From Methanobacteriota archaeon (GTDB lineage: Archaea; Thermoplasmatota; Thermoplasmata; SG8-5), in NCBI GenBank assembly GCA_013791785.1, contig VMTD01000045.1:1-34721 (forward strand): 34,721 nt of DNA, in the 5' to 3' direction. The translations under genes and the position numbers were made by a program. A model generated the notes under the pieces. The model saw only the letters and a program-made list of their open reading frames with translations, did no database searches and had not been told where the DNA came from. Positions within the stretch are counted from its first letter, which is position 1. Each line of letters begins with the position of its first letter. This document shows, in pieces, positions 2,799-27,741 of this stretch.

Positions 2799-2907
2799 CG
2801 ATTACCCCCTTTACTGCATAAATGCCGAGAACGCTCAGTCCTTCAGGGCTGAAATGAATTGGCATAAGCAGTAAAATGCAATGCGAAAGATGAACGAATA
2901 GCAGCCA

Positions 2908-3057
2908 TGCAAGATTCGCGTAATGCGTTTCACCCGACACGGACTGGTCGGGCGAGTACCTGTCACCCCGGGGCAAGCCCCGAGGTTTAACAATATACAG
3001 AAGCTTTGTATCACCCAGTATGCTTGGATATCACGACCCCACCCTCACAGGTGGGGC
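2908..3057 (-). ncRNA. Structured repeat copy 1: three hairpins, candidate omega-RNA-like or unknown ncRNA
   Basis: Read on the minus strand this has three hairpins. Hairpin A is a 7-bp stem (3050-3056 with 3037-3043) around the loop TGTGAG. Hairpin B is a 9-bp stem near 2971-2990 (CCTCGGGGC with GCCCCGGGG). Then comes the linker TGACAGGTACTCG, hairpin C (TCGCCCGAC with GTCGGGTGA), and a conserved tail AAACGCATTACGCG. The same order, linker and tail recur on the plus strand at 18141-18314, where the stems have different sequences that still pair. Hairpins with a TGTNAG loop after GCCC resemble right-end hairpins of IS200/IS605-IS1341 elements, the source of TnpB guide RNAs, but no tnpB frame is nearby. 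It may be an orphan element end, a domesticated guide-like RNA, or an unrelated ncRNA. Confidence 0.5.
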
Positions 3058-3075
3058 ATGCTGCTATAACATGCT

Positions 3076-4688: not shown

Positions 4689-5572
4689 ACGTGCTCTCCA
4701 TCTCCGGAAACCCGGAACTGGCGACGGTTCATGTCGGCCAACTGGATGACGGTAACTCCGTTGAATTCGTCGAGTCAGTGCAACCGCCCCGCACGGTCCG
4801 TGAGAAATGGGTGAACATAATCTCCACAATGGTCGGCTGTCCCGTAGGCTGCAAGATGTGCGATGCAGGCGGCGGTTATCTGCGGTCGCTCACCGCCGGA
4901 GAGATGCAGGACCAGCTGGATATTCTGGCACACATTAAATTTCCCGACGGAAAAATCAACACGCAGATGTGGAAATTGCAACTGGCCAGGATGGGCGAGC
5001 CCACCCTCAATCCCCAGGTACTGGTGTTCTTGAGAAATCTGGCAACCCAAAACCATGAGAATCTGGTCATCAGCCTTTCCACTGTGGGACCTTCGCAATG
5101 CGCGCCTTTCATCCAGGAACTGAGAAAGATAAAGGATGCTGGATTCCGGGGACGCTTCCAGCTTCAATTTTCAATACATTCCACGGACGACGAGGCAAGG
5201 CGCCGTCTAATCCCGGTAAAGGGCCTGGCATTGCCGGAAATTGCAGTCCTGGGGCGGCAATTCAGAAGTCCGGGCGATAAAAAGATCACTCTCAATTTCA
5301 TAGTCATGAAGGACGTTCCCATCGAGACCCAGAGAATAGCCCGATTATTCGACCCTGAGAACTTTCTCATCAAGCTTACCCCGCTCAACCCGACCTACCG
5401 GGCGCAATACCACAAGATACTGCCCGGTTTCGATCCAGAAAATCCAGTAGCAGTGAACGAGCTGGTGAGGGAATTCGAAACGTTGGGCTTCGAGACCATT
5501 CTCAGCATCGGGGAACTGGAAGAGAATCAGATAGGCAGCAATTGCGGGCAGTACGTTGCGAGGCTGCAGTAA
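4685..5572 (+). CDS. Short RlmN/Cfr-like radical SAM protein
   Basis: This 295-residue protein has CxxxCxxC at Cys52, Cys56 and Cys59 in VGCPVGCKMCDAGG, matching the RlmN/Cfr cluster motif. Further RlmN-type blocks follow in order: MGEPTLNP, LSTVG, QFSIHSTDDEARRRLIPV, NFIVMKDVP and IKLTPLNP. Near the C terminus QIGSNCGQY aligns with the region holding the methyl-carrying cysteine in RlmN (DIDAACGQL), so Cys287 is the likely equivalent. RlmN and Cfr methylate adenosine in 23S rRNA (and tRNA for RlmN) by a two-SAM mechanism. The usual N-terminal accessory domain of about 90 residues is missing, leaving only some 50 residues before the cluster, so the substrate may differ. The GTG start overlaps the flavoprotein stop. 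Archaea normally lack RlmN, so this may be a transferred or repurposed enzyme. Family confident, substrate unknown. Confidence 0.8.
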   Translation: MNVLSISGNPELATVHVGQLDDGNSVEFVESVQPPRTVREKWVNIISTMVGCPVGCKMCDAGGGYLRSLTAGEMQDQLDILAHIKFPDGKINTQMWKLQLARMGEPTLNPQVLVFLRNLATQNHENLVISLSTVGPSQCAPFIQELRKIKDAGFRGRFQLQFSIHSTDDEARRRLIPVKGLALPEIAVLGRQFRSPGDKKITLNFIVMKDVPIETQRIARLFDPENFLIKLTPLNPTYRAQYHKILPGFDPENPVAVNELVREFETLGFETILSIGELEENQIGSNCGQYVARLQ

Positions 5573-5573
5573 T

Positions 5574-5703
5574 TGTGGATTTACGGATTGACGATTGTAG
5601 ATTTAGGGATTGTAGATTGTAGATTTACGACGGATTGACGGCGTGGCGTATTCTCAACAAAAATCTAAAATATAAGATCTAAAATCTAAAATTTACAATC
5701 ACC
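5574..5703. repeat. AT-rich repeat with GATTGTAGATTT units and inverted arms
   Basis: The stretch repeats GATTGTAGATTT-like units (5588-5630) and is followed by their approximate complement, AAAATCTAAAAT repeated (5660-5695), ending TTTACAATC. The result is a long imperfect hairpin after the radical SAM gene. The related string GTAAATCTACAAT recurs near 16580-16595 and 34596-34608, so this is a dispersed intergenic repeat family in this genome. No frame of interest runs through it. Confidence 0.6.
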
Positions 5704-7786: not shown

Positions 7787-8587
7787 ATGCATTCCCGCTG
7801 TGATACCTTGTACAAATACCTGAACGTCGAAAAGCAGGACAACATCGCAATCGTCACCGTGAACAAGCCCCAGGTCCTCAACATCCTGGATACGCCGACG
7901 GTTTTGGAAATTGAGGAATGCTTCACTGCGCTGGGGAAGGACGACGGAGTCAGCGTCATAATCATTACAGGCGCCGGGGAGAAGGCCTTCATTGCAGGTG
8001 GAGACATCAAGGAGATGTCAGTTAAGAACAGCGTGGACGGACGCGAGTACGGCCGCAACGGCCAGCGCGCCCTTTTCACCATCGAGAACTGCTCGAAACC
8101 GGTTATTGCAGCGGTTAACGGTTACGCACTCGGCGGCGGGACCGAATTGGCCATGGCCTGCGACATTATTCTTGCCTCAGAAAAGGCCATTTTCGGCCAA
8201 CCGGAAGTGAAACTCGGCATAACCCCGGGATTTGCCGGGACCCAGAGGATGCCCCGCATCGTGGGAAGGGGAATGGGAAAGGAGATCGTTTTCAGCGGTC
8301 GTAACGTGCGTGCTGACGAGGCACTGAGGATAGGCCTGGCCAATCGCGTTTATCCCCCGGAAAAACTCATGGAAGAGGCCCTGAACCTGGCAAAGCAGAT
8401 TGCGGCCAACGGCCAGATCGCCGTACGTTCTTGCAAGGAACTAATCAACTTCGCAATGGATAATGGCCAGAATTCAGGCCTGGCCAAGGAGGCGGATGCG
8501 TTCGGCAACTGTTTTTCCACCGAGGACCAGAAGGAAGGGATGGCCGCTTTCACGGAGAAGCGGCAGGCCGGGTTCAAGGGGAAGTAG
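7787..8587 (+). CDS. Enoyl-CoA hydratase/isomerase (crotonase family)
   Basis: A 266-residue crotonase-fold enzyme. The oxyanion-hole segments are AFIAGGDIKEM and AAVNGYALGGGTELAMACD. Both catalytic glutamates of true hydratases appear present, one in GGGTELAM and one in GQPEVKLGITPG, so it probably hydrates short-chain enoyl-CoA such as crotonyl-CoA in beta-oxidation or butyrate-type metabolism. It is cytoplasmic and hexameric by family. The C-terminal EDQKEGMAAFTEKR motif is typical. The acyl-CoA dehydrogenase at 10700, which would make its substrate, was probably its direct neighbour before the AbiE cassette arrived, because a second copy of this gene's 3' end stands right before that dehydrogenase. 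The start is at ATG 7787 or in-frame TTG 7808. Confidence 0.9.
   Translation: MHSRCDTLYKYLNVEKQDNIAIVTVNKPQVLNILDTPTVLEIEECFTALGKDDGVSVIIITGAGEKAFIAGGDIKEMSVKNSVDGREYGRNGQRALFTIENCSKPVIAAVNGYALGGGTELAMACDIILASEKAIFGQPEVKLGITPGFAGTQRMPRIVGRGMGKEIVFSGRNVRADEALRIGLANRVYPPEKLMEEALNLAKQIAANGQIAVRSCKELINFAMDNGQNSGLAKEADAFGNCFSTEDQKEGMAAFTEKRQAGFKGK
8465..8563 (+). repeat. Direct repeat, left copy (3' end of enoyl-CoA hydratase)
   Basis: These 99 bases recur in the same orientation at 10498-10596. By eye 88 of 99 positions match, including an unbroken 39-base run (8525-8563 and 10558-10596). The offset is 2,033 bases and the segment between holds only the AbiE pair. See the finding on cassettes. 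Confidence 0.85.
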
Positions 8588-8676
8588 GGATATTGGCAAT
8601 TGGTCCCTCATCCTTCTACTAGTTTTTCTTCGTTAATCTATAAAATAAACGTCTTTTGGCGTTTTAAAGGTAGAAA

Positions 8677-8687
8677 ACTTTATATTC
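8677..8687 (+). promoter_or_regulatory. TATA box of the AbiE operon
   Basis: AAAACTTTATATT has a purine-rich BRE followed by a good TATA core. The expected start, about 8708-8712, falls just before ATG 8714, giving an essentially leaderless mRNA and supporting that start over the longer frame beginning at 8600. Confidence 0.55.
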
Positions 8688-8713
8688 TATTACTCGTATT
8701 GTGCTTTTCATCG

Positions 8714-9526
8714 ATGAAAATGACGGTCAACGAACAAATCAAGGTAGGAAACACATGCACTGCACGCGTGTATCGGGAGATGGTTCGACAGCGCGTCATG
8801 GACACTGCGGCGGTGTCTGAGATATGTGGGGGTAGCCGCCGTGCAAGGGACGTTATGTACGCCCTGACAAAGCGTGGCCTCGCCATCAGAGTACACAGGG
8901 GGCTCTATGCTGCCGTGCCGGTGGAGTATGAGGGGAAATACCACGAAATAGACAGATACGTGATTGCCAATCGCGCTGGAGGTACTGGTGCTCTTGCCTA
9001 TCACTCAGCGCTGGAAATGTACGGCGTTGCGCAGTCGCACTTCAACACAGTCTTCTACATGAGGGACCGCTCGCTGAAGGGCTTTGAGTTTCAGGGAACG
9101 TTGTACACATTCGTGACCACTGAGAAATTGTTCGGTATTGTCGATGTCTGGCGGGGAGGCGTCAAGTTGCCTGTCACGGACCGGGAGCGCACCTTTCTGG
9201 ACTGCCTCAGACGGATGGATTATTGCGGCGGCCCGGAGGAATTTCTGAAGAGCGTGCAGACATTCCACATGCTGGATTTCAACAATCTGGGTGACCATCT
9301 CAGAAAATTCGATGAGCGAAGTCTATACCAGAAGACTGGCTACATCCTTTCCCTTCTCAAGGCAGATTTCAAACCCCCAGAGGAGTTCATGGACCAACTC
9401 AAGAGGAAAGTAGGAAGGAAGACGTACTACCTGATGCAGCGTCATGTACCTGGCCTAGGCCGGTTCATCGGTGATTGGAATCTGATAGTTCCGAAAAATA
9501 TCGAGGAGTTGATGCGTTTTGTCTAA
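8714..9526 (+). CDS. AbiEi-type antitoxin/transcriptional regulator
   Basis: A 270-residue protein of the AbiEi family, the antitoxin of type IV toxin-antitoxin systems. The N-terminal winged helix (about 15-70) includes VSEICGGSRRARDVMYALTK and GLAIRVHRGLYA, the characteristic K-x-G-hydrophobic-R-hydrophobic-x-x-G-x-Y pattern. The C-terminal domain has ALAYHSALEMYGV and the conserved VTDRERTFLDCL. AbiEi usually represses its own operon and counteracts the toxin without needing direct contact. The frame extends upstream to 8600, but the TATA position and family N terminus favour ATG 8714 (or 8720). The stop overlaps the toxin start by eight bases, as expected for an AbiE pair. The pair is enclosed by duplicated hydratase 3' ends. 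Confidence 0.85.
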   Translation: MKMTVNEQIKVGNTCTARVYREMVRQRVMDTAAVSEICGGSRRARDVMYALTKRGLAIRVHRGLYAAVPVEYEGKYHEIDRYVIANRAGGTGALAYHSALEMYGVAQSHFNTVFYMRDRSLKGFEFQGTLYTFVTTEKLFGIVDVWRGGVKLPVTDRERTFLDCLRRMDYCGGPEEFLKSVQTFHMLDFNNLGDHLRKFDERSLYQKTGYILSLLKADFKPPEEFMDQLKRKVGRKTYYLMQRHVPGLGRFIGDWNLIVPKNIEELMRFV

Positions 9527-10478
9527 TTACCCTGACAGGAGATACTTCGACGGAGTGTCGCACGAAACAGACTACAACAGAGGGGTGCTGGAGAAGGCAT
9601 ATCGCTTGCTGGCGCTTGTGAAGGAGATGCACACAAATCCAAGACTTGTGGACTGCCTCGCGCTAAAGGGTGGTACTGCAATTCAATTCATATACCTGGG
9701 CATGAAGCGCCTGTCGGTGGACGTAGACCTGAATTATGTTGGAAGCATAGAAAAAGTGGTCATGGTGAAAGATCGCTTGGAGATTCGCCAAATACTTGAG
9801 AAATTAATCAAGAGCCAGGATTACAGGTTCGACAAGCCATACTCGATGTATCTGGAAGAACAATTCGAACTTGGATATACGACCGCATCCGGGAGCACGG
9901 ATAAATTGAAGGTTGAAATCAATTACGGTGAAAGGCTCCCTGTTCTGGAATTAAAAAAGCAGACCTTTGAACATCCCTTCACAATGCTGGGCGAAGTGCA
10001 GAGCATTTCATACGGATTCGAGGAGATAATGGCACAGAAGGTCAGGGCTCTTGTTTCCCGAGGCACCGCACGGGATTTGTACGATGCACAGTTATTTTCA
10101 ATGGCTGAGCGGCCGTACGATGCCGCACTGTTCAAAAAATTGTTCTTGTTTTATCTCATTCTCAATAAGGAAGATGCCAGAAAGGTCACAGACCTGAAAA
10201 TACGCCAGATCAGCAAGGATGACGTCAAGAGATGGCTCGTTCCCCTGCTGAGGCGCAGGGACTACAGGATCGACCTGGAGGAGATGAGGGCCCCAGTCCT
10301 CGAATTCGTGAAAGGATTGCTGGATTTCAGCGAGGACGAGCGCAGATTTCTGGACCGGTTTTACGACGAATGCGTATTCGACCAGGGGCTGCTCTTCGAC
10401 GACATCCCGGTGAAGAACGACTTGGCCAGGCATCCGATGGTACAATGGCGGTTGGGCGGCGGGGTGGAGGCCCAGTAG
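9519..10478 (+). CDS. AbiEii-type nucleotidyltransferase toxin
   Basis: A 319-residue AbiEii/AbiGii-family nucleotidyltransferase. The fold signature is LKGGTAIQFIYL (49-60) followed by RLSVDVDL (64-71), the GG-x(n)-S-x-D-x-D motif with catalytic Asp68 and Asp70. Further on, VRALVSRGTARDLYDAQ matches the R-x-x-x-RDLYD block of the family. Characterised relatives modify tRNA ends with nucleotides and arrest growth, giving phage abortive infection or plasmid stabilisation. The start is taken at TTG 9519, which overlaps the antitoxin by eight bases; no ATG exists near the N terminus and GTG near 9556 would delete conserved sequence. Transcription is presumably shared with and repressed by the antitoxin. 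Confidence 0.85.
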   Translation: MSNYPDRRYFDGVSHETDYNRGVLEKAYRLLALVKEMHTNPRLVDCLALKGGTAIQFIYLGMKRLSVDVDLNYVGSIEKVVMVKDRLEIRQILEKLIKSQDYRFDKPYSMYLEEQFELGYTTASGSTDKLKVEINYGERLPVLELKKQTFEHPFTMLGEVQSISYGFEEIMAQKVRALVSRGTARDLYDAQLFSMAERPYDAALFKKLFLFYLILNKEDARKVTDLKIRQISKDDVKRWLVPLLRRRDYRIDLEEMRAPVLEFVKGLLDFSEDERRFLDRFYDECVFDQGLLFDDIPVKNDLARHPMVQWRLGGGVEAQ

Positions 10479-10479
10479 C

Positions 10480-10620
10480 AATTTTGACGAGGAATACGGC
10501 CAGAACAGCGGCCTGGCCAAGGAAGCGGATGCGTTCGGCAACTGCTTCGACACGCAGGACCAGAAGGAAGGGATGGCCGCTTTCACGGAGAAGCGGCCAG
10601 CGCGATTTAAAAATGCATGA
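10480..10620 (+). pseudogene. Orphan 3' fragment of a second enoyl-CoA hydratase gene
   Basis: In one frame this stretch reads NFDEEYGQNSGLAKEADAFG, then a CFDTQDQKEGMAAF block and TEKRPARFKNA with a TGA. That is the last 46 residues of a crotonase, aligned with the C terminus of the hydratase at 7787-8587 but not identical (for example FDTQ for FSTE, PARFKNA for QAGFKGK). There is no start codon or upstream part: similarity begins two bases after the AbiEii stop. The unique ending and mix of silent and replacement changes show it is an older paralogue or the original gene end, not a recent duplication. It sits 80 bases before the acyl-CoA dehydrogenase start. Confidence 0.85.
10498..10596 (+). 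repeat. Direct repeat, right copy (hydratase 3' end)
   Basis: Right-hand copy of the 99-base repeat starting at 8465. The 39-base identical run is at 10558-10596. Together the copies bound the AbiE pair. Confidence 0.85.
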
Positions 10621-10654
10621 ACACCGGCCGACCATTCCCATTCCCAATCCCATC

Positions 10655-10670
10655 AAAACTTACAAATATC
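10655..10670 (+). promoter_or_regulatory. Probable TATA box of the acyl-CoA dehydrogenase gene
   Basis: AAAACTTACAAATATC has a purine-rich BRE-like part and a TATA-like part ending about 31 bases before ATG 10700, consistent with a very short leader. Confidence 0.4.
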
Positions 10671-10699
10671 CTCATCTATTAGTGGGTCTGGTAATTCAC

Positions 10700-11842
10700 A
10701 TGGACTTCACCCCCACCAAGGAACACCAGATGCTCAGGAACACCGTTCGCAGCTTCGCGGAGAAGGAGATCAAGCCAATCGCCGCCGACATAGACAAGAA
10801 CGGCGATGTGCCGAAGGAAATCCTGGACCGCATGGGCGAGATGAACCTCATGGGCATGACCGTTCCGAAGGAGTACGGGGGCGCGGGTTGCGACAAGATT
10901 TCTTACATGATTGCTCTGGAGGAGATTGCCAGGGTGTGCGGTTCCACAGGCATAGTCATGGAAGCTCATAACTCTCTTGGCCTGGGGCATATCTTCGAGC
11001 GCGGCAACGAGGAGCAGCGCAGGAAGTGGGTGCCTGACATTGCGGCGGGAAAGAAGCTCGCGGCATGGGCCTTGACCGAGGCCAACGCCGGTTCCGATTC
11101 CGGGGGAATGTCCACCAGGGCGGTTCTGGAGGGGGATGAATGGGTACTCAACGGAACCAAGATATTCATCACCAATGCCGCAATCGGAGATTATGTCACT
11201 GTCATGGCCGTTACCGACAAATCCAAGGGCACGAAAGGAATATCCGCATTCGTGGTCCCCACCGGAACGCCGGGATACAGCCTGGGCACCAGCGAGGACA
11301 AGATGGGCCTCAGGGGCTCGCACACTTCGGAACTCGTCTTCGAGAATTGCCACATTCCCAAGGGAAACATCCTGGGTGAACCAGGCACAGGTTTTACTGG
11401 CGCCATGAACATCCTGGACCGCGGCCGTGCCGCAGTCGGCGCATTGGCCGTGGGCATAGCCCAGGGCGCGCTGGACGAATCCGTCCGATACTCCAAGGAG
11501 AGGGAGCAGTTCGGCCGGCCAATCGCCAAGTTCCAGGCGATACAGTGGATGCTGGCGGACATGGCGACACGCATCGAAGCTTCACGATTACTTGTTTACC
11601 GTGCGGCATGGATGGAGGATAAAGGCATGAGATTCTCAAAAGAGGCCTCAATGGCCAAGCTCTATGCCTCGGAAATGGCCACCCAGACCTGCCTCAATGC
11701 CATACAGATACACGGCGGTTACGGTTACACCAAGGATTACCCTGTGGAACGGATGCTCCGCGACACCAAGCTCATGGAGATAGGCGAGGGCACCAGCCAG
11801 GTCCAGAGAATTGTTATTTCGAGGGCCATACTCGGACGCTGA
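10700..11842 (+). CDS. Acyl-CoA dehydrogenase (short/medium-chain type)
   Basis: A 380-residue FAD enzyme of normal family length. It has an alpha-helical N-terminal domain, AWALTEANAGSDSGG and GTKIFITNA (FAD/substrate-binding beta domain, about 125-160), KMGLRGSHTSELVF, REQFGRPIAKFQA, and a C-terminal IHGGYGYTKDYPVERMLRD. Glu363 in GEGTSQVQR corresponds to the catalytic base of medium- and short-chain enzymes. It oxidises acyl-CoA to trans-2-enoyl-CoA and would normally pass electrons to ETF, which is not in this window. The frame stays open upstream to 10232, but that part crosses the toxin gene and hydratase remnant in another frame and is not protein-like. It pairs functionally with the enoyl-CoA hydratase at 7787, and ends 3 bases from convergent mntP. 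Confidence 0.93.
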   Translation: MDFTPTKEHQMLRNTVRSFAEKEIKPIAADIDKNGDVPKEILDRMGEMNLMGMTVPKEYGGAGCDKISYMIALEEIARVCGSTGIVMEAHNSLGLGHIFERGNEEQRRKWVPDIAAGKKLAAWALTEANAGSDSGGMSTRAVLEGDEWVLNGTKIFITNAAIGDYVTVMAVTDKSKGTKGISAFVVPTGTPGYSLGTSEDKMGLRGSHTSELVFENCHIPKGNILGEPGTGFTGAMNILDRGRAAVGALAVGIAQGALDESVRYSKEREQFGRPIAKFQAIQWMLADMATRIEASRLLVYRAAWMEDKGMRFSKEASMAKLYASEMATQTCLNAIQIHGGYGYTKDYPVERMLRDTKLMEIGEGTSQVQRIVISRAILGR

Positions 11843-18686: not shown

Positions 18687-21600
18687 ATGAAGTTTGTGAG
18701 AAAAAAAATATTCACAATATGGGTGTGCGCGGTTATGGTTGTTTCGGCATTCGTGATGGTGGGCGAGGTCGGAAATGATGTGGAAGGAAAGGAACTTGCA
18801 GACGAGGGTCTTGCTTATGTTCCGCCGCAGGTTCCTATAAAAATTGACTCGAATGCGGACCTCCCACTGATGGAGTCCTGGAGCGGAGAGCTACCATATA
18901 CAGAGACATTCAATGATGAATTGATTATCGCACTCCAGAGCGATATGAAGGACATGAATCCCTGGAATCCAGATACGAATGATGTTTGGAAATCAAATCA
19001 GCTTCAGTACAATTTCGAGGGCCTGATGGCCTACAACCCTGATTACGAATTGTACCCTGCTCTGGCGGCAGCGAACCCAACCGGACCGAACGGAGCCGAT
19101 GCCTGGGTGAGCGCTGATGGGTTGCAGTTTTCAATCAACCTCAGATCGAACGTCACATTCCACGACGGCCATGTCATGGACTCGCAGGATGTCGTATTCT
19201 CATTCCAAACCTTGGCCTGGGGGCTATTCCAGAACCAGGTGCTAAACTCGCTGTACTGGGGCGATGGTACCACATTCACAAGGTACGACGGCGGCATCAG
19301 TAAAATTGGTGTCGAGGCAAATGGTACCTATAGGGTGGACTTCCACCTGAATCAGCCATATTCAATGTTCTGGTACCAGACAATGAAATTGCCTATTATT
19401 CCGTTCCACATATGGAATAATCACACAGTACCAGCCCAGGGGTGGTATAACACCACAGACGAATTCCAGGTTGACTATTCATACGGCAGTTCTCCCACTG
19501 AAACCGACGCAACAATAGGCACTGGGCCGTTTTACCTCGAGTCCTGGTCCCCAGGAAACGGCTCCGTGATCAAAGCATACGAGAACTATTGGGACAAGAA
19601 CGGCACCACCTCATGGAAGGGCGTCGAATACCCGAACTACCCGAAATACGTGAAGGAAATGAGGTTCAAGATATACACTCAGCTCGACGTGGCAATACTT
19701 GCTCTCCAGAACGGAGAGGTCCACCATCTTCCCTGGAGCCTGACACCAGGTAATCAAAACTCGCTTAGTCTTAACCCATGTGTCGGCATCGAGACAAACA
19801 AGGACCAGGGCCTGTTCTACATGTCATTCAACTTCAGGAAAGCAGGTATCAGCGACAAGAACTTCAGAAGGGCCATAGCCTACTGCGTTGACAAACAATA
19901 CATCGTTGACAGGCTCATGGGCGGTTACGGTATCAAGGGAACCGTTCCCATGTCCGTCACCAACACCTTCTACGTGAACACAACGGTTCCGGCCTGGATA
20001 CAGGGCGGTAACCTTGACGCAGCCAAGGCACTTCTTGACGCGAACGGCTACACGGACAAGGACGGAGACGGCTGGAGGGACATGCCGGACGGTTCACCGA
20101 TTAAATTCAACATCCTGACACCACCGAAGGACTATGACCCGATAAGGGCTGACAGCGGTATCATGATTGAAAAGAACCTGAAATCAATCGGCCTGAACAT
20201 TGCATCTGTGCCAACAAGCTTTGACACACTCGTGAGCGCGGCTTACGTGTCTGTTGACTTCGACATGTACATCTTAGGATGGAGCGTCGGCTCGTTCCCG
20301 GAATCATACCTGAGGGATTTTTTCCACTCGGACATGGATGTCGCACTTAACCCGTGGGGTTCGAATGCCGCCGGTTACCACAACGCAACCGTGGATGCCA
20401 TGATCGAAGACATGGAAGTCGAGATGGACAATGACATCAGGGCTGGCCTGATCAAGGACATTTGTGGCGCAACCATGATGGATGTAGTTTATGACACGCT
20501 CTACTACAGGACCAACATCGAAGCATACCGTGGAGACATCTGGCAGGGCTGGGTTTCGGGTTTCGGTTCGATTTACAATAGATTCTCAATTAACAATCTG
20601 CTTCCACCCAGTTATATGAATCCGTCCTATGGCAATCTTGAGGTCGGATTGTATGTACCAGACACACTTCCCGCCGATGGCAATTCGACATGCTATGTTC
20701 TGGTGACGAACAATGATGTTCCGATGGACAATGCGTATGTCGAGGTCCAGACCAGTTTCGGCACCTACATCTCTGGAAATACAGATTCTGAAGGTAATTT
20801 CAATTTTGATCTGCTCGTGCCATTCATCGAGGGGCACGTATATATCTGGGCCAATGTGACAAAGGACGCCGAAGTGGGCGGTGCATTCCAGGTATCCAGC
20901 GTTATCACTTCCAAGCCCATTGCCCAGCTCAGCCTGTCAACTCTCGACGGGGTCATCTCCCCTTCGGGTTCGACGGTGGTCATGGCAAAGGTGACTGACC
21001 GGGATGGAGTCGGAATGGGCGGTGTAAGCGTTAACGTTGACACAAATCTCATGTTCGGCAGTGTGGACGCGCCTGTTAAAGTGACGGATCTGACTGGATT
21101 CGCGAATTTCACATACACAGCGCCACCAACCTCCATGTTGCCAAACACCAACAGGTACGAGCAGTTTAAAGCCACAATCTCTGTGCCAAATGCCATAATA
21201 CCCGAGGTTCAGGCAGCATCCCTCATCATCGGAGTTTTCAATAGCGTGAAGGACTGGTACTCTATCGATATTACCGGTGTCACCGATTACGTGATAACCG
21301 GCAACGCGTCTGGAACACTGCCGATGACAACAGATGTCACGGTAACAGTACTGGACCAGGACGGAGCACCGGTTGATGCCGCAGAACTCACCATAGAGGT
21401 CGACAACACAATAGCAACCCCGGACGCACTGACAAAGAACACAAACGTCGCCGGACAGGCCGTGTTCACACTTACTGCCGTGGACCTTGGCAACTCGACC
21501 GAGAGCACAATGGTGAGGGTCTACAACTACACCAAAGCATACGCCACCGAGGACACATTCCTGCTCTGTAATGCCAACGAATCCAGCACCATGACCGGAT

Positions 21601-24600
21601 ACGCAGCAGACATTGACTTCGATGATATGGTTGACCACCAGGGAACAGCCACCATAACAGCGACAGTCTGGAACCAGACCGGCGCTCTGGCAGTCGGTGT
21701 TCCGTGCCAGTTCTTCATACCGCCAACTGCAGAGGGAATACCCGGCTTATTCCAGGGAGGAGATTCCTGGGGATGGTATGAATATGGAATGGACTGGGAC
21801 TTCGGCTGGTGGGCCGGTTACCTCGGTAGCTGGTTCGGCGACAATGCGACCGTCACGGACGGCGCAGGTCAGCTGGTCGGAACCATAACCACACCGAGCT
21901 TCATCGCAGACAGCGTCATACCGGTGGAATTCGGTATTGGAGGTTACGGAATCACCGATGCGTTCAACTTCACCGCCAACCAGTGGTGGATGGAGGACTA
22001 CGGAGCAGATAACTGGGTTGCACCGTTCACTGACGGAGAGGACGGAAACTACTACCTGAGGCCGGCAGACTTCACCCTCAAGGACTCCGGAATACTCTTT
22101 AGGGGGCCCATCGCAACCATGACCAACGTAAACCTGGACACGCCATACTTTTCCTCCGAGGACTCGAACGGAACAATCACCATAACTTTCCAGAATGAGA
22201 GTGGCGCATTGGCGAATTCCAATGTGAAGATTTCCGAGGGAATAGCCAACCCGCCATTACTTGACGAGGGGCTGACAAACAGTTCTGGCATGAGGAGTTA
22301 TCTTTATGATTCCGGAGCAAGAGTGTTTGATACCGGCATAGGGTTCACAACAATGGTGACGGATGTTAATTATTCACACTTTCCGTTTAATTTCTACTTG
22401 CCATATGTCAATACTCCGGACAACTTGATTCTGACTGCGGAGCCTTCTGTGAAACTGATAGATGCAGATGAAGCTGTCCAATTCAATGTAACGGTCACGG
22501 ATTATCTGGGAACCCCTATTGTCGGAGCAGTGGTCTGGGTGGGCAATGTTTCAAACACGACAGATGCAATGGGTGAAACAACATTTTCTTTGCTGATGTC
22601 TGGCAGTGGAATTCAGAATACAACCTTTGCCACATCTTATAGCGGATGGAATGGAAGCATGACCGCAGGAGTGATTGTTTGGGCTTTTACTTCCCTCCCT
22701 TGGTTCGATGATATGGAGAGCGGCCAAGGCAACTGGACTGTGGTAACGAATAATACTGCATGGGAACTGGGCAACCCCCTGGGTTATGGGCCGGGAACCG
22801 CTTACTCTGGCAATAACTGTTGGGGAACGAATGTTAATACGAACTATCAAGATGGGGCATATGCAATTCTCACAACACCGTGTTTCAATTCTCCATCGTA
22901 CGATATTCTATCTTTCTACATGTGGTTCCGAACTGAGGGATGGTGTGATGCTGGTTGGGTAGAAGTTACGAGTAACGGTTTAAATTGGACCCGAATAGAA
23001 CCTGTTACTGGCCCAACATATCATGATACAACTTGGGGTCGGGGTTATTCCGGTGATTACACAGGTAATTCCACTGGTTGGCAGTATGCTGAATTTGACC
23101 TGTCATCCTTCCCAGGCGGAACTCTATCGATTCGTTTCGTATTCAGAAGTGACGGAAGTGTCACATATCCTGGCTGGTATATCGATGATGTATATGTCGG
23201 CACCCCCCCGGACTACCGTGTCCGTCTGACCCCGGAAACCCAAACTGGCAGCGGCACAATCGGCCAAACCTTTGATTATTCGTTGACCGTGGAGAACACC
23301 GGCTTACAAAACGACACATATAATCTATCTATCTTCGGCAATTCCTGGGACACCCGAATATACAATGCCAACGGCACAGTCGAAATCTCAAATATTTATG
23401 TTGCCAGTGGAATGTCGGAGAACATTCTCGTCAGGGTTTTGGTGACATTCAACGCGACCGGCGGTGATCAGGATATTTCGATTATAACCGCGACATCATG
23501 GAACGATTTCAATGCCCGCGACAATTCCACAATCACGACCCGCGTCGGCGCGGTTCACAATATTGAGCAGGACATCTGGTATTCGACAATTCAGGAGGCC
23601 GTGGACGATGCGAATTCCGGAGACCACCTCTGGGCGAGAAATGGTACTTACCATGAGACAGTGAACATCTACAAGTCCATAACCCTCACCGGCGAGAACA
23701 GGAATACCACCATAATCGACGGCGGTGGAAACTGGTATGTGGTGTATATTCAAACCAGTGGTGTGAGCATCAGCGGGTTCACTATACGGAATGGTGGAAA
23801 TTATGGCGTCTACCTTGATTCCTCTTACGGCTGCACAATTGCGGACAACATCATATCGAACAATGATTGTGGCATCCGCCTTTCCAAATCCAATGATAAT
23901 ATTATTACCGACAATATTTTTAACTCGAACAGTGGTTTTGGTATCTGGCTTGAATCTTCAAGCCGCAACACCATCGCCAATAACACTATTTCGAACAACT
24001 ATATTGGCATATCCCTTTATTCCTCCTCTCAGAACAACACCATCTCGAATAACCTAATCAATAACAACTATTTTGGAATCAGATTTGAGGTTGAACGATG
24101 CAACTCCAACACGATAACCCACTGTAACATTCTTAACAATGATGGATATGGAATATATGCTAACAGTTGGGGATCTTTCCATATCCTCAACCTGATAACC
24201 TACAACAACATTCTCTCGAATGGATATTGTGGCATTTATATAGAATGGAACACACAGTACAACTACATCCACCACAACAACATTGCAGCCAATGGTTGGC
24301 GAAATGCCTATGAGTCGAGTTTCAACATTACAAATGTCTGGGACGACGGCTACCCGTCCGGCGGGAACTACTGGGGTGATTACTCGGGCAATGATTTCTA
24401 TTCCGGCCCGTTGCAGAACATACCCGGCTTCGATGGAATCGGGGATACGCCATACAATGTCAATGGGGGAGGTAACAGCAGTTCGATACAGGACCAATAC
24501 CCATTCATAAAACCCACTGTTGCGGGTCCCCAGCCCATTACCGATTCCACGCCCCCGCAGCATTCGGACGAGTACCCTCTGCCAGGCTCCAGAATCAGCG

Positions 24601-27509
24601 ATGCGACACCTGAAATTTCAGTCAGCATATCAGATGACTCCTGGGTCAACGAGTCCACGATAAAGCTGTACGTCAATGGTTTTTCAGTAAAGACCAACAA
24701 AGCCCTCAGGTCGGACGGGACAAATGTCTATTTCGATGTCTCGTACTATCATGCTTCGGGATTCATCGACGGCCAGGTCGTGACCTGCAGGATAGTCGCC
24801 ATGGACATATTCAGTAACTCAATGGAATACATCTGGCAGTTCACAGTTGACCTGACAGCACCATTTGTGGTTTCAGTGTACCCACTGGACAGTGCAATTG
24901 ACGTGCCCAGAAACACAACAATCAGCGTCACATTCAGCGAACCCATGGACCATGCTTCGGTGGAAGCTGCATTCACCATCAATCCCTCTGTTTCAGGAAA
25001 CTTCACCTGGGTCGGAAATACAATGACATTCCACCCGAACACGGACCTGGCTCCGACCACAATCTATAATGTCTCTGTGAATATGAATGCAATGGACCTG
25101 GCAGGAAATCATCTGGCTGATTATTTCTGGTCCTTCACAACAGAACAGGGCTACCTCAGGATTTACCACACCCCGGCATCCACGGTGGAACTCGGAACTT
25201 CACTGGTCGTGAACTGCGACGTTGAAGCGTTCTGGGGCAGTTATATTGTAAATTGCACTCTTTATTACATTCCGGTCGGAGGCACAGAGTACATTGCGAT
25301 TTCCATGTGGCTGCAATCCGGTGACGAGTATTATGGCACCTGGATGTGCCTGATACCGGCGCAGAACTCGGTGGGTATTCTACGATACTACATCGAGGCC
25401 CAGAACGACTGGCTTGAGACCGCAACCTATCCGGAGACAGACCCGGTTGTAAGCCCTGTAATTGTCAATGTGATTGATACTGCCGCGCCCATGCATTCTG
25501 ACGAACAACCTGCAGATGGCACCAATGCATCAGATGGCTCCGTGCTTGTATCAGTAAACATTACAGACATCTCTGCTATTAACACTGGAACCATTCAACT
25601 GATAATCAACGGCTTCTCAGTGGATTATACTCTGACATTGATTCCGAACGGCTACCGTGTGTCTTACTTCCAGGAAGCCAGCTTCGGCTCCGAGACCGTG
25701 CAATGTAGGATAATAGCCGATGACGTTTGGGGAAATCAACTGGACTGGACCTGGTCTTTCACGGTGTCAAATCCGGTAATGGAGATAAGCAAGGAAGCGC
25801 CTGCGACAGCGAATCCCGGTCAAATGATAACTTACTGGGTTAACTTCACCAACTCTGGCACTGCCTGGGCATACAATGTGACTGTGACAGAAATATATCC
25901 CGCAGGGGTGACATTTGTAAGTAGTCTCCCATTCCCATCATTTGGCAACAATGTCTGGTTCATTGGAAATGTTGCGCCCGGTGCTTCTATGTCCATACAA
26001 ATCACGGTTCAGGTCAACATTGGAGCCAACGGCACACTCATTAATACAGTTATTCTGGACTATGAGAACAGCGTTGGTACGCCATTCCAGGAACAGGATT
26101 CGGCATTTACCTCAGTGATTGCCCCGTTGATGATGATTGACAAAACAGGCCCCGCAACAGCCAGCCCTGGCGAAACCATAACCTACACGATTACTTACAT
26201 GAACCTCGGAACAGACTGGGCCTACAATGTCTGGATTAACGAGACTTACCCTGCAGGAGTCACATTTATCAACGCGAGCCCGGCCCCGACCATAGGCAAC
26301 AATGCATGGTTCATCGGAAATGTTCCTCCGGGTGGGTCAGGGAGCATTTTCATCAATGTAACAGTTATAGCTAGCAGCGGAAACCTCACGAATTCCGTAT
26401 TCCTTGAATACACTGATTCGATGGGAACTCCCTACCCAATTGTATCGGATACTACTGAAACAATAGTTACTGATTCGTCACCCCAGCACTCTAATGAATC
26501 CCCGCCAATCGACGGCTACACATCTGACATGACTCCTGTTATCTCGGTACATGTGACCGACGGAAGCGGAGTAAATGCCAGCACAATCCGGTTGTACATA
26601 AACGGTTTCTCGATCGCCTATAACCTGGTGCCTATTTCGGACGGTTACAATGTGTCCTACTGGCATGAAGGCGGATTCACCGATGGAGAAGTGGTAACAT
26701 GCAGAATATATGCGAAGGATTTCAGCGGCAATACACTGGATTTCACCTGGACATTCACGGTGTCATCCGTACCGTCATTCGACATCGAAATTCATGCAGG
26801 CTGGAACCTCATCTCCCTCCCACTAGTCCAGACCAACACATCGATACTGAGCGTTCTTTCATCAATAGACGGCCAGTGGGACGTTGTCAAATATTATGAT
26901 GCCATCACTAAAACCTGGAAAACCTACCGCGTCGGAGCAACAACCAACACCCTCTTTGACTTGGACCACACTATGGGATTCTGGCTACACACCACCGAAA
27001 ATACTACCCTGACAGTTTACGGTACGCCGCCCACCAACACTGATATCTTGCTGAAAGCGGGCTGGAACCTGGTCGGTTACCCGTCCATGAACGGAACCAG
27101 GACCATCGCTGAAGCTCTTTTTGGAACTGGATATTTAAGAGTGGAGGGCTACGATTCAGCATCACCATACATCAAAGTCTTGAACGACACCTACATCATG
27201 AAAGCTGGCGAAGGATACTGGGTATATGTTCCGAGCGATACTTTGTGGATTGTATCGTTTTACTCTTCACCATCGGAAGATGAAATTAATGCTGAAGGTG
27301 GCTTTTCCGAGACCAAGGGCGCTGGAGGCGCATTCACTTCAACAATCGAGGAATATTACATACCTCTTCCGAGCGACTGTACTGTTGCGGCATCTCTCAA
27401 CGGAAATGGCGTATCCAGCACCCAGGCCTCTTCCGGCGGCTCATCCCTGTTCGGGCTGCTGCTGCTATTGGCGGTTGTCTGTCTGGCGGTACGAAAGCAC
27501 AGGAATTAA
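18687..27509 (+). CDS. Giant surface protein: peptide-binding ABC-type domain fused to Ig-like, beta-helix and repeat modules
   Basis: A 2,940-residue protein. After a signal/anchor helix (about 8-26), residues about 65-640 form a family 5 extracellular solute-binding domain (DppA/OppA type), seen in NQLQYNFEGLMAYN, FRRAIAYCVDKQYIVDRLM and the closing YNRFSINN. Next come Big/invasin-like Ig domains (640-1330) and a lectin-like MAM-type domain (about 1335-1508: FDDMESGQGNW to GWYIDDVYVG). A CARDB-like segment, a NosD beta-helix (1625-1938) and an SbsA-type Big_5 domain (2060-2153) follow. Three copies of a roughly 100-residue HSDE/HSNE module start near 1952, 2265 and 2595, two DUF11-like repeats lie at 2364-2595, then a GWNLISLP/GWNLVGYP tandem (2700-2855) and a C-terminal helix (about 2917-2936) before RKHRN. 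It probably captures peptides at the cell surface; no permease genes adjoin. Confidence 0.9.
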   Translation: MKFVRKKIFTIWVCAVMVVSAFVMVGEVGNDVEGKELADEGLAYVPPQVPIKIDSNADLPLMESWSGELPYTETFNDELIIALQSDMKDMNPWNPDTNDVWKSNQLQYNFEGLMAYNPDYELYPALAAANPTGPNGADAWVSADGLQFSINLRSNVTFHDGHVMDSQDVVFSFQTLAWGLFQNQVLNSLYWGDGTTFTRYDGGISKIGVEANGTYRVDFHLNQPYSMFWYQTMKLPIIPFHIWNNHTVPAQGWYNTTDEFQVDYSYGSSPTETDATIGTGPFYLESWSPGNGSVIKAYENYWDKNGTTSWKGVEYPNYPKYVKEMRFKIYTQLDVAILALQNGEVHHLPWSLTPGNQNSLSLNPCVGIETNKDQGLFYMSFNFRKAGISDKNFRRAIAYCVDKQYIVDRLMGGYGIKGTVPMSVTNTFYVNTTVPAWIQGGNLDAAKALLDANGYTDKDGDGWRDMPDGSPIKFNILTPPKDYDPIRADSGIMIEKNLKSIGLNIASVPTSFDTLVSAAYVSVDFDMYILGWSVGSFPESYLRDFFHSDMDVALNPWGSNAAGYHNATVDAMIEDMEVEMDNDIRAGLIKDICGATMMDVVYDTLYYRTNIEAYRGDIWQGWVSGFGSIYNRFSINNLLPPSYMNPSYGNLEVGLYVPDTLPADGNSTCYVLVTNNDVPMDNAYVEVQTSFGTYISGNTDSEGNFNFDLLVPFIEGHVYIWANVTKDAEVGGAFQVSSVITSKPIAQLSLSTLDGVISPSGSTVVMAKVTDRDGVGMGGVSVNVDTNLMFGSVDAPVKVTDLTGFANFTYTAPPTSMLPNTNRYEQFKATISVPNAIIPEVQAASLIIGVFNSVKDWYSIDITGVTDYVITGNASGTLPMTTDVTVTVLDQDGAPVDAAELTIEVDNTIATPDALTKNTNVAGQAVFTLTAVDLGNSTESTMVRVYNYTKAYATEDTFLLCNANESSTMTGYAADIDFDDMVDHQGTATITATVWNQTGALAVGVPCQFFIPPTAEGIPGLFQGGDSWGWYEYGMDWDFGWWAGYLGSWFGDNATVTDGAGQLVGTITTPSFIADSVIPVEFGIGGYGITDAFNFTANQWWMEDYGADNWVAPFTDGEDGNYYLRPADFTLKDSGILFRGPIATMTNVNLDTPYFSSEDSNGTITITFQNESGALANSNVKISEGIANPPLLDEGLTNSSGMRSYLYDSGARVFDTGIGFTTMVTDVNYSHFPFNFYLPYVNTPDNLILTAEPSVKLIDADEAVQFNVTVTDYLGTPIVGAVVWVGNVSNTTDAMGETTFSLLMSGSGIQNTTFATSYSGWNGSMTAGVIVWAFTSLPWFDDMESGQGNWTVVTNNTAWELGNPLGYGPGTAYSGNNCWGTNVNTNYQDGAYAILTTPCFNSPSYDILSFYMWFRTEGWCDAGWVEVTSNGLNWTRIEPVTGPTYHDTTWGRGYSGDYTGNSTGWQYAEFDLSSFPGGTLSIRFVFRSDGSVTYPGWYIDDVYVGTPPDYRVRLTPETQTGSGTIGQTFDYSLTVENTGLQNDTYNLSIFGNSWDTRIYNANGTVEISNIYVASGMSENILVRVLVTFNATGGDQDISIITATSWNDFNARDNSTITTRVGAVHNIEQDIWYSTIQEAVDDANSGDHLWARNGTYHETVNIYKSITLTGENRNTTIIDGGGNWYVVYIQTSGVSISGFTIRNGGNYGVYLDSSYGCTIADNIISNNDCGIRLSKSNDNIITDNIFNSNSGFGIWLESSSRNTIANNTISNNYIGISLYSSSQNNTISNNLINNNYFGIRFEVERCNSNTITHCNILNNDGYGIYANSWGSFHILNLITYNNILSNGYCGIYIEWNTQYNYIHHNNIAANGWRNAYESSFNITNVWDDGYPSGGNYWGDYSGNDFYSGPLQNIPGFDGIGDTPYNVNGGGNSSSIQDQYPFIKPTVAGPQPITDSTPPQHSDEYPLPGSRISDATPEISVSISDDSWVNESTIKLYVNGFSVKTNKALRSDGTNVYFDVSYYHASGFIDGQVVTCRIVAMDIFSNSMEYIWQFTVDLTAPFVVSVYPLDSAIDVPRNTTISVTFSEPMDHASVEAAFTINPSVSGNFTWVGNTMTFHPNTDLAPTTIYNVSVNMNAMDLAGNHLADYFWSFTTEQGYLRIYHTPASTVELGTSLVVNCDVEAFWGSYIVNCTLYYIPVGGTEYIAISMWLQSGDEYYGTWMCLIPAQNSVGILRYYIEAQNDWLETATYPETDPVVSPVIVNVIDTAAPMHSDEQPADGTNASDGSVLVSVNITDISAINTGTIQLIINGFSVDYTLTLIPNGYRVSYFQEASFGSETVQCRIIADDVWGNQLDWTWSFTVSNPVMEISKEAPATANPGQMITYWVNFTNSGTAWAYNVTVTEIYPAGVTFVSSLPFPSFGNNVWFIGNVAPGASMSIQITVQVNIGANGTLINTVILDYENSVGTPFQEQDSAFTSVIAPLMMIDKTGPATASPGETITYTITYMNLGTDWAYNVWINETYPAGVTFINASPAPTIGNNAWFIGNVPPGGSGSIFINVTVIASSGNLTNSVFLEYTDSMGTPYPIVSDTTETIVTDSSPQHSNESPPIDGYTSDMTPVISVHVTDGSGVNASTIRLYINGFSIAYNLVPISDGYNVSYWHEGGFTDGEVVTCRIYAKDFSGNTLDFTWTFTVSSVPSFDIEIHAGWNLISLPLVQTNTSILSVLSSIDGQWDVVKYYDAITKTWKTYRVGATTNTLFDLDHTMGFWLHTTENTTLTVYGTPPTNTDILLKAGWNLVGYPSMNGTRTIAEALFGTGYLRVEGYDSASPYIKVLNDTYIMKAGEGYWVYVPSDTLWIVSFYSSPSEDEINAEGGFSETKGAGGAFTSTIEEYYIPLPSDCTVAASLNGNGVSSTQASSGGSSLFGLLLLLAVVCLAVRKHRN

Positions 27510-27633: not shown

Positions 27634-27741
27634 TGCCGAAGACGGGATCTGAACCCGCGGCCTTCGGATATCTCAAGATATCCAGTGCGTCATAGATTAT
27701 CCCTATGAGTCCGACGCTCTACCAGGCTGAGCCACTTCGGC
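27634..27741 (-). tRNA. tRNA-Met(CAT), elongator type, with a 34-base intron
   Basis: The cloverleaf reads: acceptor GCCGAAG/CTTCGGC, discriminator A73; D stem GCTC/GAGC; anticodon stem TCGGA/TCCGA; loop CTCATA before the intron plus A38 after it, so the anticodon is CAT; variable AGGCC; T stem GCGGG/CCCGT with TTCAGAT loop. Removing 27670-27703 leaves a 74-nt tRNA with no encoded CCA. The intron lies after base 37, the canonical archaeal site. CAT tRNAs also include the initiator and the isoleucine tRNA modified to read ATA; the G1-C72 pair argues against the usual archaeal initiator (A1-U72), and the close overall likeness to archaeal elongator tRNA-Met (GCC..., CTCATAA loop) supports the call. 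Confidence 0.92.
27670..27703 (-). other. tRNA intron
   Basis: 34 bases inserted between positions 37 and 38. They contain CTATGA, which can pair with TCATAG spanning the anticodon, and GATATC followed by TTGA and GATATC, giving exon-intron helices of the kind needed for the bulge-helix-bulge cut by archaeal splicing endonuclease. The exact bulges were not resolved by eye. Confidence 0.75.

Follow-up and report, generated by a model that had tools for sequence, protein, structure and literature searches.

A predicted AbiE toxin-antitoxin module in the genome of an uncultured Methanobacteriota archaeon of the SG8-5 lineage lies between two copies of the same gene end, the last 41 codons of an enoyl-CoA hydratase gene (8465-8587 and 10498-10620; all positions are those of the window, the whole 34,721 nucleotide stretch of DNA that was analysed). 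The two copies form a mosaic, in which an identical run of 42 bases, likely a recombination tract, is set between diverged parts, and AbiE, but not the neighbouring hydratase, has been exchanged with a sister species. The account tentatively preferred for this arrangement is that AbiE entered by homologous recombination between the resident hydratase and DNA from a related species, in which a hydratase end and AbiE were already joined.

A duplicated hydratase gene end

The features of the region are as follows; G000 denotes the genome of the window, G003 a sister genome of the same genus, and other G numbers further genomes used for comparison.

7771/7787 in the window, with G000:C137:1-170 and G000:C121:1-191: putative inversion breakpoints, one between LMWPc and the tRNA-Ser(GCT) region, the other separating the NUDIX gene from the hydratase
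7787..8587, plus strand: intact enoyl-CoA hydratase gene (Pfam ECH_1 1.2e-69; orthologues in G001, G002 and G003)
8465..8524, plus strand: left arm of the left copy, 49/60 identical to the right copy
8523..8564, plus strand: 42-base run of the left copy, with an inverted repeat, identical to 10556-10597
8564..8587, plus strand: tail of the left copy with the stop codon, 9/24 identical to the right copy and 19/24 to G003
8588..8628, plus strand: diverged 3' flank of the hydratase, with G003-like spacing; edge of the AbiE exchange near 8606-8629
8629..8713, plus strand: upstream region of abiE, matching G003 at 100%, with the identical stretch continuing to 8782
8714..9526, plus strand: abiEi, predicted antitoxin/repressor (PADLOC 7.3e-55)
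9519..10478, plus strand: abiEii, predicted nucleotidyltransferase-fold toxin (PADLOC 3.6e-76; PF08843 1.4e-20)
10480..10620, plus strand: right copy, the end of a second hydratase (47 codons including the stop), start missing
10556..10597, plus strand: 42-base run of the right copy, identical to 8523-8564
10652..10699, plus strand: dehydrogenase upstream region, aligning with G001
10700..11842, plus strand: acyl-CoA dehydrogenase, start of the block syntenic with G001

The hydratase itself may start at the TTG at 7808, since its relatives begin at MYKFL or VYKFL. A repeat search found the duplicated segment as the sole long direct repeat within 7-13 kb (8458-8577 and 10491-10610, spacing 2033, 83% over 120 nt). 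Aligned over 41 codons, both stops included, the left and right copies agree at 97 of 123 bases, and the stop codons, TAG at 8587 and TGA at 10620, share one alignment column. The count of 88 of 99 bases given in a preliminary description of this DNA for 8465-8563 against 10498-10596 was exactly reproduced base by base; the long identical run noted there is also present, although it measures 42 bases rather than 39. Weak similarity at the protein level (NFDEEYGQN against NFAMDNGQN) extends the right copy leftward to 10480, two bases past the abiEii stop codon (10476-10478). When the genome itself was searched, 10498-10597 was matched at 89% (E=4e-31), and no further copy of the hydratase end was found in that genome other than a 69% paralogue on another contig.

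As previously described, the two abiE reading frames are all that lies between the copies, and the right copy, which lacks a gene start, stands headless directly before the acyl-CoA dehydrogenase, the gap being 80 nt. All genome comparisons were made on draft assemblies, and the join at the repeat may represent a misassembly through the 42-base run.

The AbiE module

Profile matches and toxin motifs identify the module as a predicted AbiE type IV toxin-antitoxin system (AbiEi/AbiEii), which bears out the original assignment. The genes are in bicistronic order with an 8-nt overlap and both match PADLOC models; in Pfam, AbiEii matches PF08843 (DUF1814), while the AbiEi match to AbiEi_4 (0.023) is under the cut-off of that family. 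AbiEii carries GG-x15-DVD, corresponding to the motif hGGx15DhD, and the conserved K..R..RDLYD, such that motifs I-IV are all present, and these are invariant or nearly so across six relatives. The same motifs have been reported as required for the toxicity of Streptococcus agalactiae AbiEii (PMC3985639). As its relatives end at approximately the same place, the toxin looks complete.

The module thus resembles known AbiE systems in its two overlapping genes, in the profile matches to both and in the nucleotidyltransferase motifs hG[G/S]x15DhD, K/R and RDLYD, and differs in the AbiEi scores below Pfam cut-offs and in being archaeal. Archaeal AbiE systems have already been described, including in Thermoplasmatota (PMC12988326). 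By homology, the module presumably acts like other AbiE systems, in which an autoregulating AbiEi checks the toxin, in abortive infection. Where AbiEi operator repeats would be expected in the promoter, only weak inverted repeats were seen, at 8624-8677; in the relative G005 the AbiE promoter contains duplicated operator-like elements of 46 nt. The AbiE homologue of G005 (L163:57-2389, on G005:C150) lies directly downstream of two genes, one a phage integrase by Pfam, the other resembling a tyrosine recombinase by eye but lacking a Pfam match. No relatives of AbiEi or AbiEii were found on viral contigs, and no hydratase fragment was found near any of seven other AbiE loci of the class.

Exchange of AbiE between species

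The order of genes in G003 is NUDIX-hydratase-abiEi-abiEii, with the contig ending inside abiEii. Between the two genomes, the hydratase and its 3' flank match at about 76%, up to a point near 8619, 31 bases past the hydratase stop codon, where identity jumps; beyond it, the sequences are completely identical over 150 of 150 bases, then about 92% identical through abiE. At third codon positions, correspondingly, identity to G003 is 0.48 for the hydratase, whereas the two abiE genes reach 0.80 and 0.87. Since AbiE is nearly identical while the hydratase is diverged, the exchange of AbiE postdates the separation of the species, and the position of the jump past the stop codon places the edge of the exchanged DNA downstream of the hydratase. 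The last 41 codons and 3' flank in G003 are diverged in the manner of another species' gene, unlike AbiE, and in this comparison the hydratase end therefore appears not to have travelled with the module. Both genomes have similar spacing between the stop codon and AbiE, and the diverged 3' flank is alike as well; either an old AbiE site has had its content replaced, or AbiE has arrived twice at one spot.

A mosaic of diverged and identical sequence

The two gene ends are not uniformly similar, although the signal rests on 123 bases, which are covered by two orthologues, those in G001 and G003. Within the left 60 bases, the copies agree at 49 positions, while each agrees with G001 or G003 at 47-48; hence the 11 differences between the copies are as many as are found between species. 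By contrast, the core, comprising the next 39 bases, is identical between the copies (39/39), where pairs of orthologues agree at 31-34 positions. In the 24-base tail, 15 positions differ between the copies, leaving only nine identical, while the left copy agrees with G003 at 19. When the 26 differences were drawn with site-specific rates, the probability of none falling in the core was about 4e-5 to 8e-5, and that of an identical run of at least 39 bases occurring anywhere was 3e-4.

The differences between the copies in the first 33 codons have the character of coding divergence, with eight being synonymous and three non-synonymous (P=4e-4 against no selection), and the reading frame of the right copy is unbroken to its TGA. 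This synonymous bias, together with the identical core between diverged parts, indicates that the right copy is not a newly made duplicate and not an old one in decay, the latter being ruled out by the intact frame and the bias. The right copy instead appears to be the end of a hydratase that probably worked until recently, approximately as different from the left copy as another species' gene would be, and to carry a short tract in common with the left copy. The 42-base run contains in the left copy an inverted repeat, GCCGCTT-N8-AAGCGGC, which in the right copy straddles the end of the run and has 9-base arms (TGGCCGCTT-N8-AAGCGGCCA); this inverted repeat is absent in G001 and G003.

The hydratase-dehydrogenase slot in relatives

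The space between hydratase and dehydrogenase is variable among relatives. In G001, it is occupied by a 282-aa gene on the opposite strand (L004:6499-7347, minus strand) encoding a Bro-N domain and matching the defence candidate PDC-S13 at 1e-116, after which about 1.9 copies of a 174-base repeat extend up to the dehydrogenase start; no second hydratase end was found in this slot. In L010, which by its coordinates corresponds to G004, and in G005, G006 and G008, the NUDIX gene is followed directly by the dehydrogenase with no hydratase there, and the contigs of G002 and G007 end inside the hydratase. No empty hydratase-dehydrogenase site was found among G001-G008, the contigs of G002, G003 and G007 ending short of it, and a broad search of the class returned no additional close hydratase orthologue. 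The best match to the dehydrogenase in another genome is labelled Methanomassiliicoccales UBA147. In G011, from another family of the order, a weak hydratase-like fragment, LANGLVAVRAEKRLINASGDMPLASE, followed by a stop codon, is found directly before the dehydrogenase (L218:275-382, on G011:C350; tblastn E=2e-4), which makes gene remnants at that place conceivable.

Such a slot is reminiscent of the defence hotspots between conserved genes that have been described previously (e.g. PMC10250203), as one position holds AbiE in G000 and G003 and the Bro-N / PDC-S13 candidate in G001. It differs from them in holding single modules, not islands, and the comparison draws on three informative genomes only.

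The gene before the hydratase also differs: in the window it is a phosphatase (LMWPc), not the NUDIX gene that adjoins the hydratase orthologues in G001, G002 and G003. In these three genomes, a tRNA-Ser(GCT) region (called by ARAGORN in G001 and G003, and identified by similarity in G002) and two genes come after the phosphatase. Phosphatase and hydratase are on one contig in G001, 48 kb apart and in opposite orientation. In G000, 150 bases remain between the end of the NUDIX gene and the end of its contig, and the start of the two-gene block is likewise close to the edge of a different contig, at 190 bases. We infer an inversion of about 48 kb, in G001 coordinates; both G000 contig ends sit where it predicts, meaning that the hydratase would have kept its link to the dehydrogenase. 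A larger rearrangement placing AbiE beside the right copy was ruled out, as the inversion explains the changed upstream neighbour and no 5' part of a hydratase is left in the 150 bases after the NUDIX gene.

Origin of the arrangement

In the recombination account tentatively preferred here, the donor would be another congeneric species, with AbiE already placed behind its hydratase as in G003. A crossover inside the 42-base run would have joined the left part of the resident gene to the donor tail and AbiE, and the same crossover would have joined the donor left arm, lying behind AbiE, to the resident tail and the dehydrogenase. The hydratase would thereby be left intact, with the right copy as a by-product, and the donor molecule would have been circular or otherwise end-joined, and about 2 kb in size. 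Such a crossover accounts at once for the mosaic, the intact hydratase and the headless end behind AbiE. The donor-type order of NUDIX, hydratase and AbiE in G003 supports it, as does the succession of a left arm diverged to the between-species level, an identical core and a dissimilar tail. It is further favoured by the jump in identity to G003 at the AbiE edge, by the mainly synonymous differences between the copies and by the hydratase having kept its link to the dehydrogenase. From these observations we infer the crossover, the donor and its closed form. However, the model works only if the donor was circular or rearranged, with its join falling exactly at the abiEii stop codon, and no donor sequence was found in the genomes compared. 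As the jump in identity to G003 is outside the proposed crossover, AbiE must also have moved alone among species, and a later short gene conversion between the copies would leave the same pattern.

The main rival, judged unlikely though clearly ahead of those that follow, holds that a second hydratase, whether duplicated in tandem long ago or acquired as a homologue, stood just before the dehydrogenase until AbiE arrived between the two hydratases and deleted the start and first ~218 codons of this second gene, whose end survives as the right copy, with the identical run being a short gene conversion. The divergence of the right copy as coding sequence is that of a second working gene, its distance from the dehydrogenase resembles the gap of roughly 65-80 nt left by the upstream gene in relatives (L010, L005), the fragment in G011 has a comparable position, and in the comparison with G003 no hydratase end accompanied AbiE. 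However, two full tandem hydratases, which the preliminary description had set as evidence against its own interpretation, were not seen in any relative, there being one in the G001 slot and one in G003 before the contig end, and the deletion would have to end exactly at the abiEii stop codon and be accompanied by a separate conversion.

Integration of e14 and phage 21 in E. coli icd replaces the 3' end of the gene, and the preliminary description proposed an entry of this type. The element would have brought its own hydratase 3' end, the right copy being the displaced original end, and its integrase would since have been lost or have acted in trans; this is improbable, and less likely than the truncation of a second hydratase. 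The parallel lies in a host metabolic gene whose 3' end still works, with another 3' end found beyond the insert, that is, a restored gene with its end duplicated; the inverted repeat in the identical run, with its 8-base spacer, and the phage-type integrase gene ahead of AbiE in G005 also count in favour of this reading. By contrast, the insert here is only about 2 kb, and no integrase is encoded between the copies or, as had been stated, detected by Pfam among the window ORFs scanned. The exchange edge in the G003 comparison follows the gene, an integrase has no need of the homology that the right copy shows on the 5' side of the identical run, and an identical core between diverged arms is unexplained by a crossover at the left end. 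Overall, the proposal is partly supported: the recent arrival of AbiE, the variable slot, the intact hydratase and a right copy recently belonging to a working gene all hold, whereas the supply of the hydratase end by the AbiE unit is not supported, the exchange in the G003 comparison starting ~31 nt after the stop codon, and the mosaic is left unaccounted for. The integration of e14 in icd is given in PMC5431349, citing Hill et al. 1989.

Homology-facilitated illegitimate recombination, a process described for several bacteria (PMC3240628), seems a similarly doubtful source. Linear donor DNA would have crossed over upstream in the hydratase and been end-joined behind abiEii to the resident gene, making the left end donor and the right copy resident; the right junction at the abiEii stop codon, which has no homology of its own, fits this combination of homology on one side and a precise non-homologous join on the other. 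However, it predicts no special identical run, the mosaic suggesting instead a crossover inside the duplicated segment; no breakpoint is evident inside the hydratase against G001, G002 or G003, where third positions are near saturation; and the process has been demonstrated in bacteria, not this lineage. There is also a slim chance that AbiE forms a cassette independent of any integrase: with partly identical gene ends on either side, it could leave as a 2,033-base circle by homologous recombination through the 42-base run, with the hydratase left intact, and enter the same gene of related species by the same route.

Other features of the window

Intergenic dispersed repeats are found at 2810-2876, 2893-3066 and 5572-5700, and match no Rfam family at the gathering threshold. 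A 67-base dispersed element has dozens of matches across the genus, and another of roughly 110 bases is present in about 40 or more copies in its own genome. A 2940-aa protein (18687-27509) combines SBP_bac_5 solute-binding, beta-helix/NosD and Ig-like domains. The tRNA identified by Rfam at 27634-27741 (minus strand) probably contains an intron, as it spans 108 bases against a 71-position model and was missed by ARAGORN.

Implications

A defence module has been exchanged between archaeal species while the neighbouring gene has not, and in another sister species the same slot is taken by a candidate defence gene of another kind. The mosaic gene ends represent a small, testable case in which modules without an integrase could enter via the ends of conserved genes, leaving those genes unbroken.
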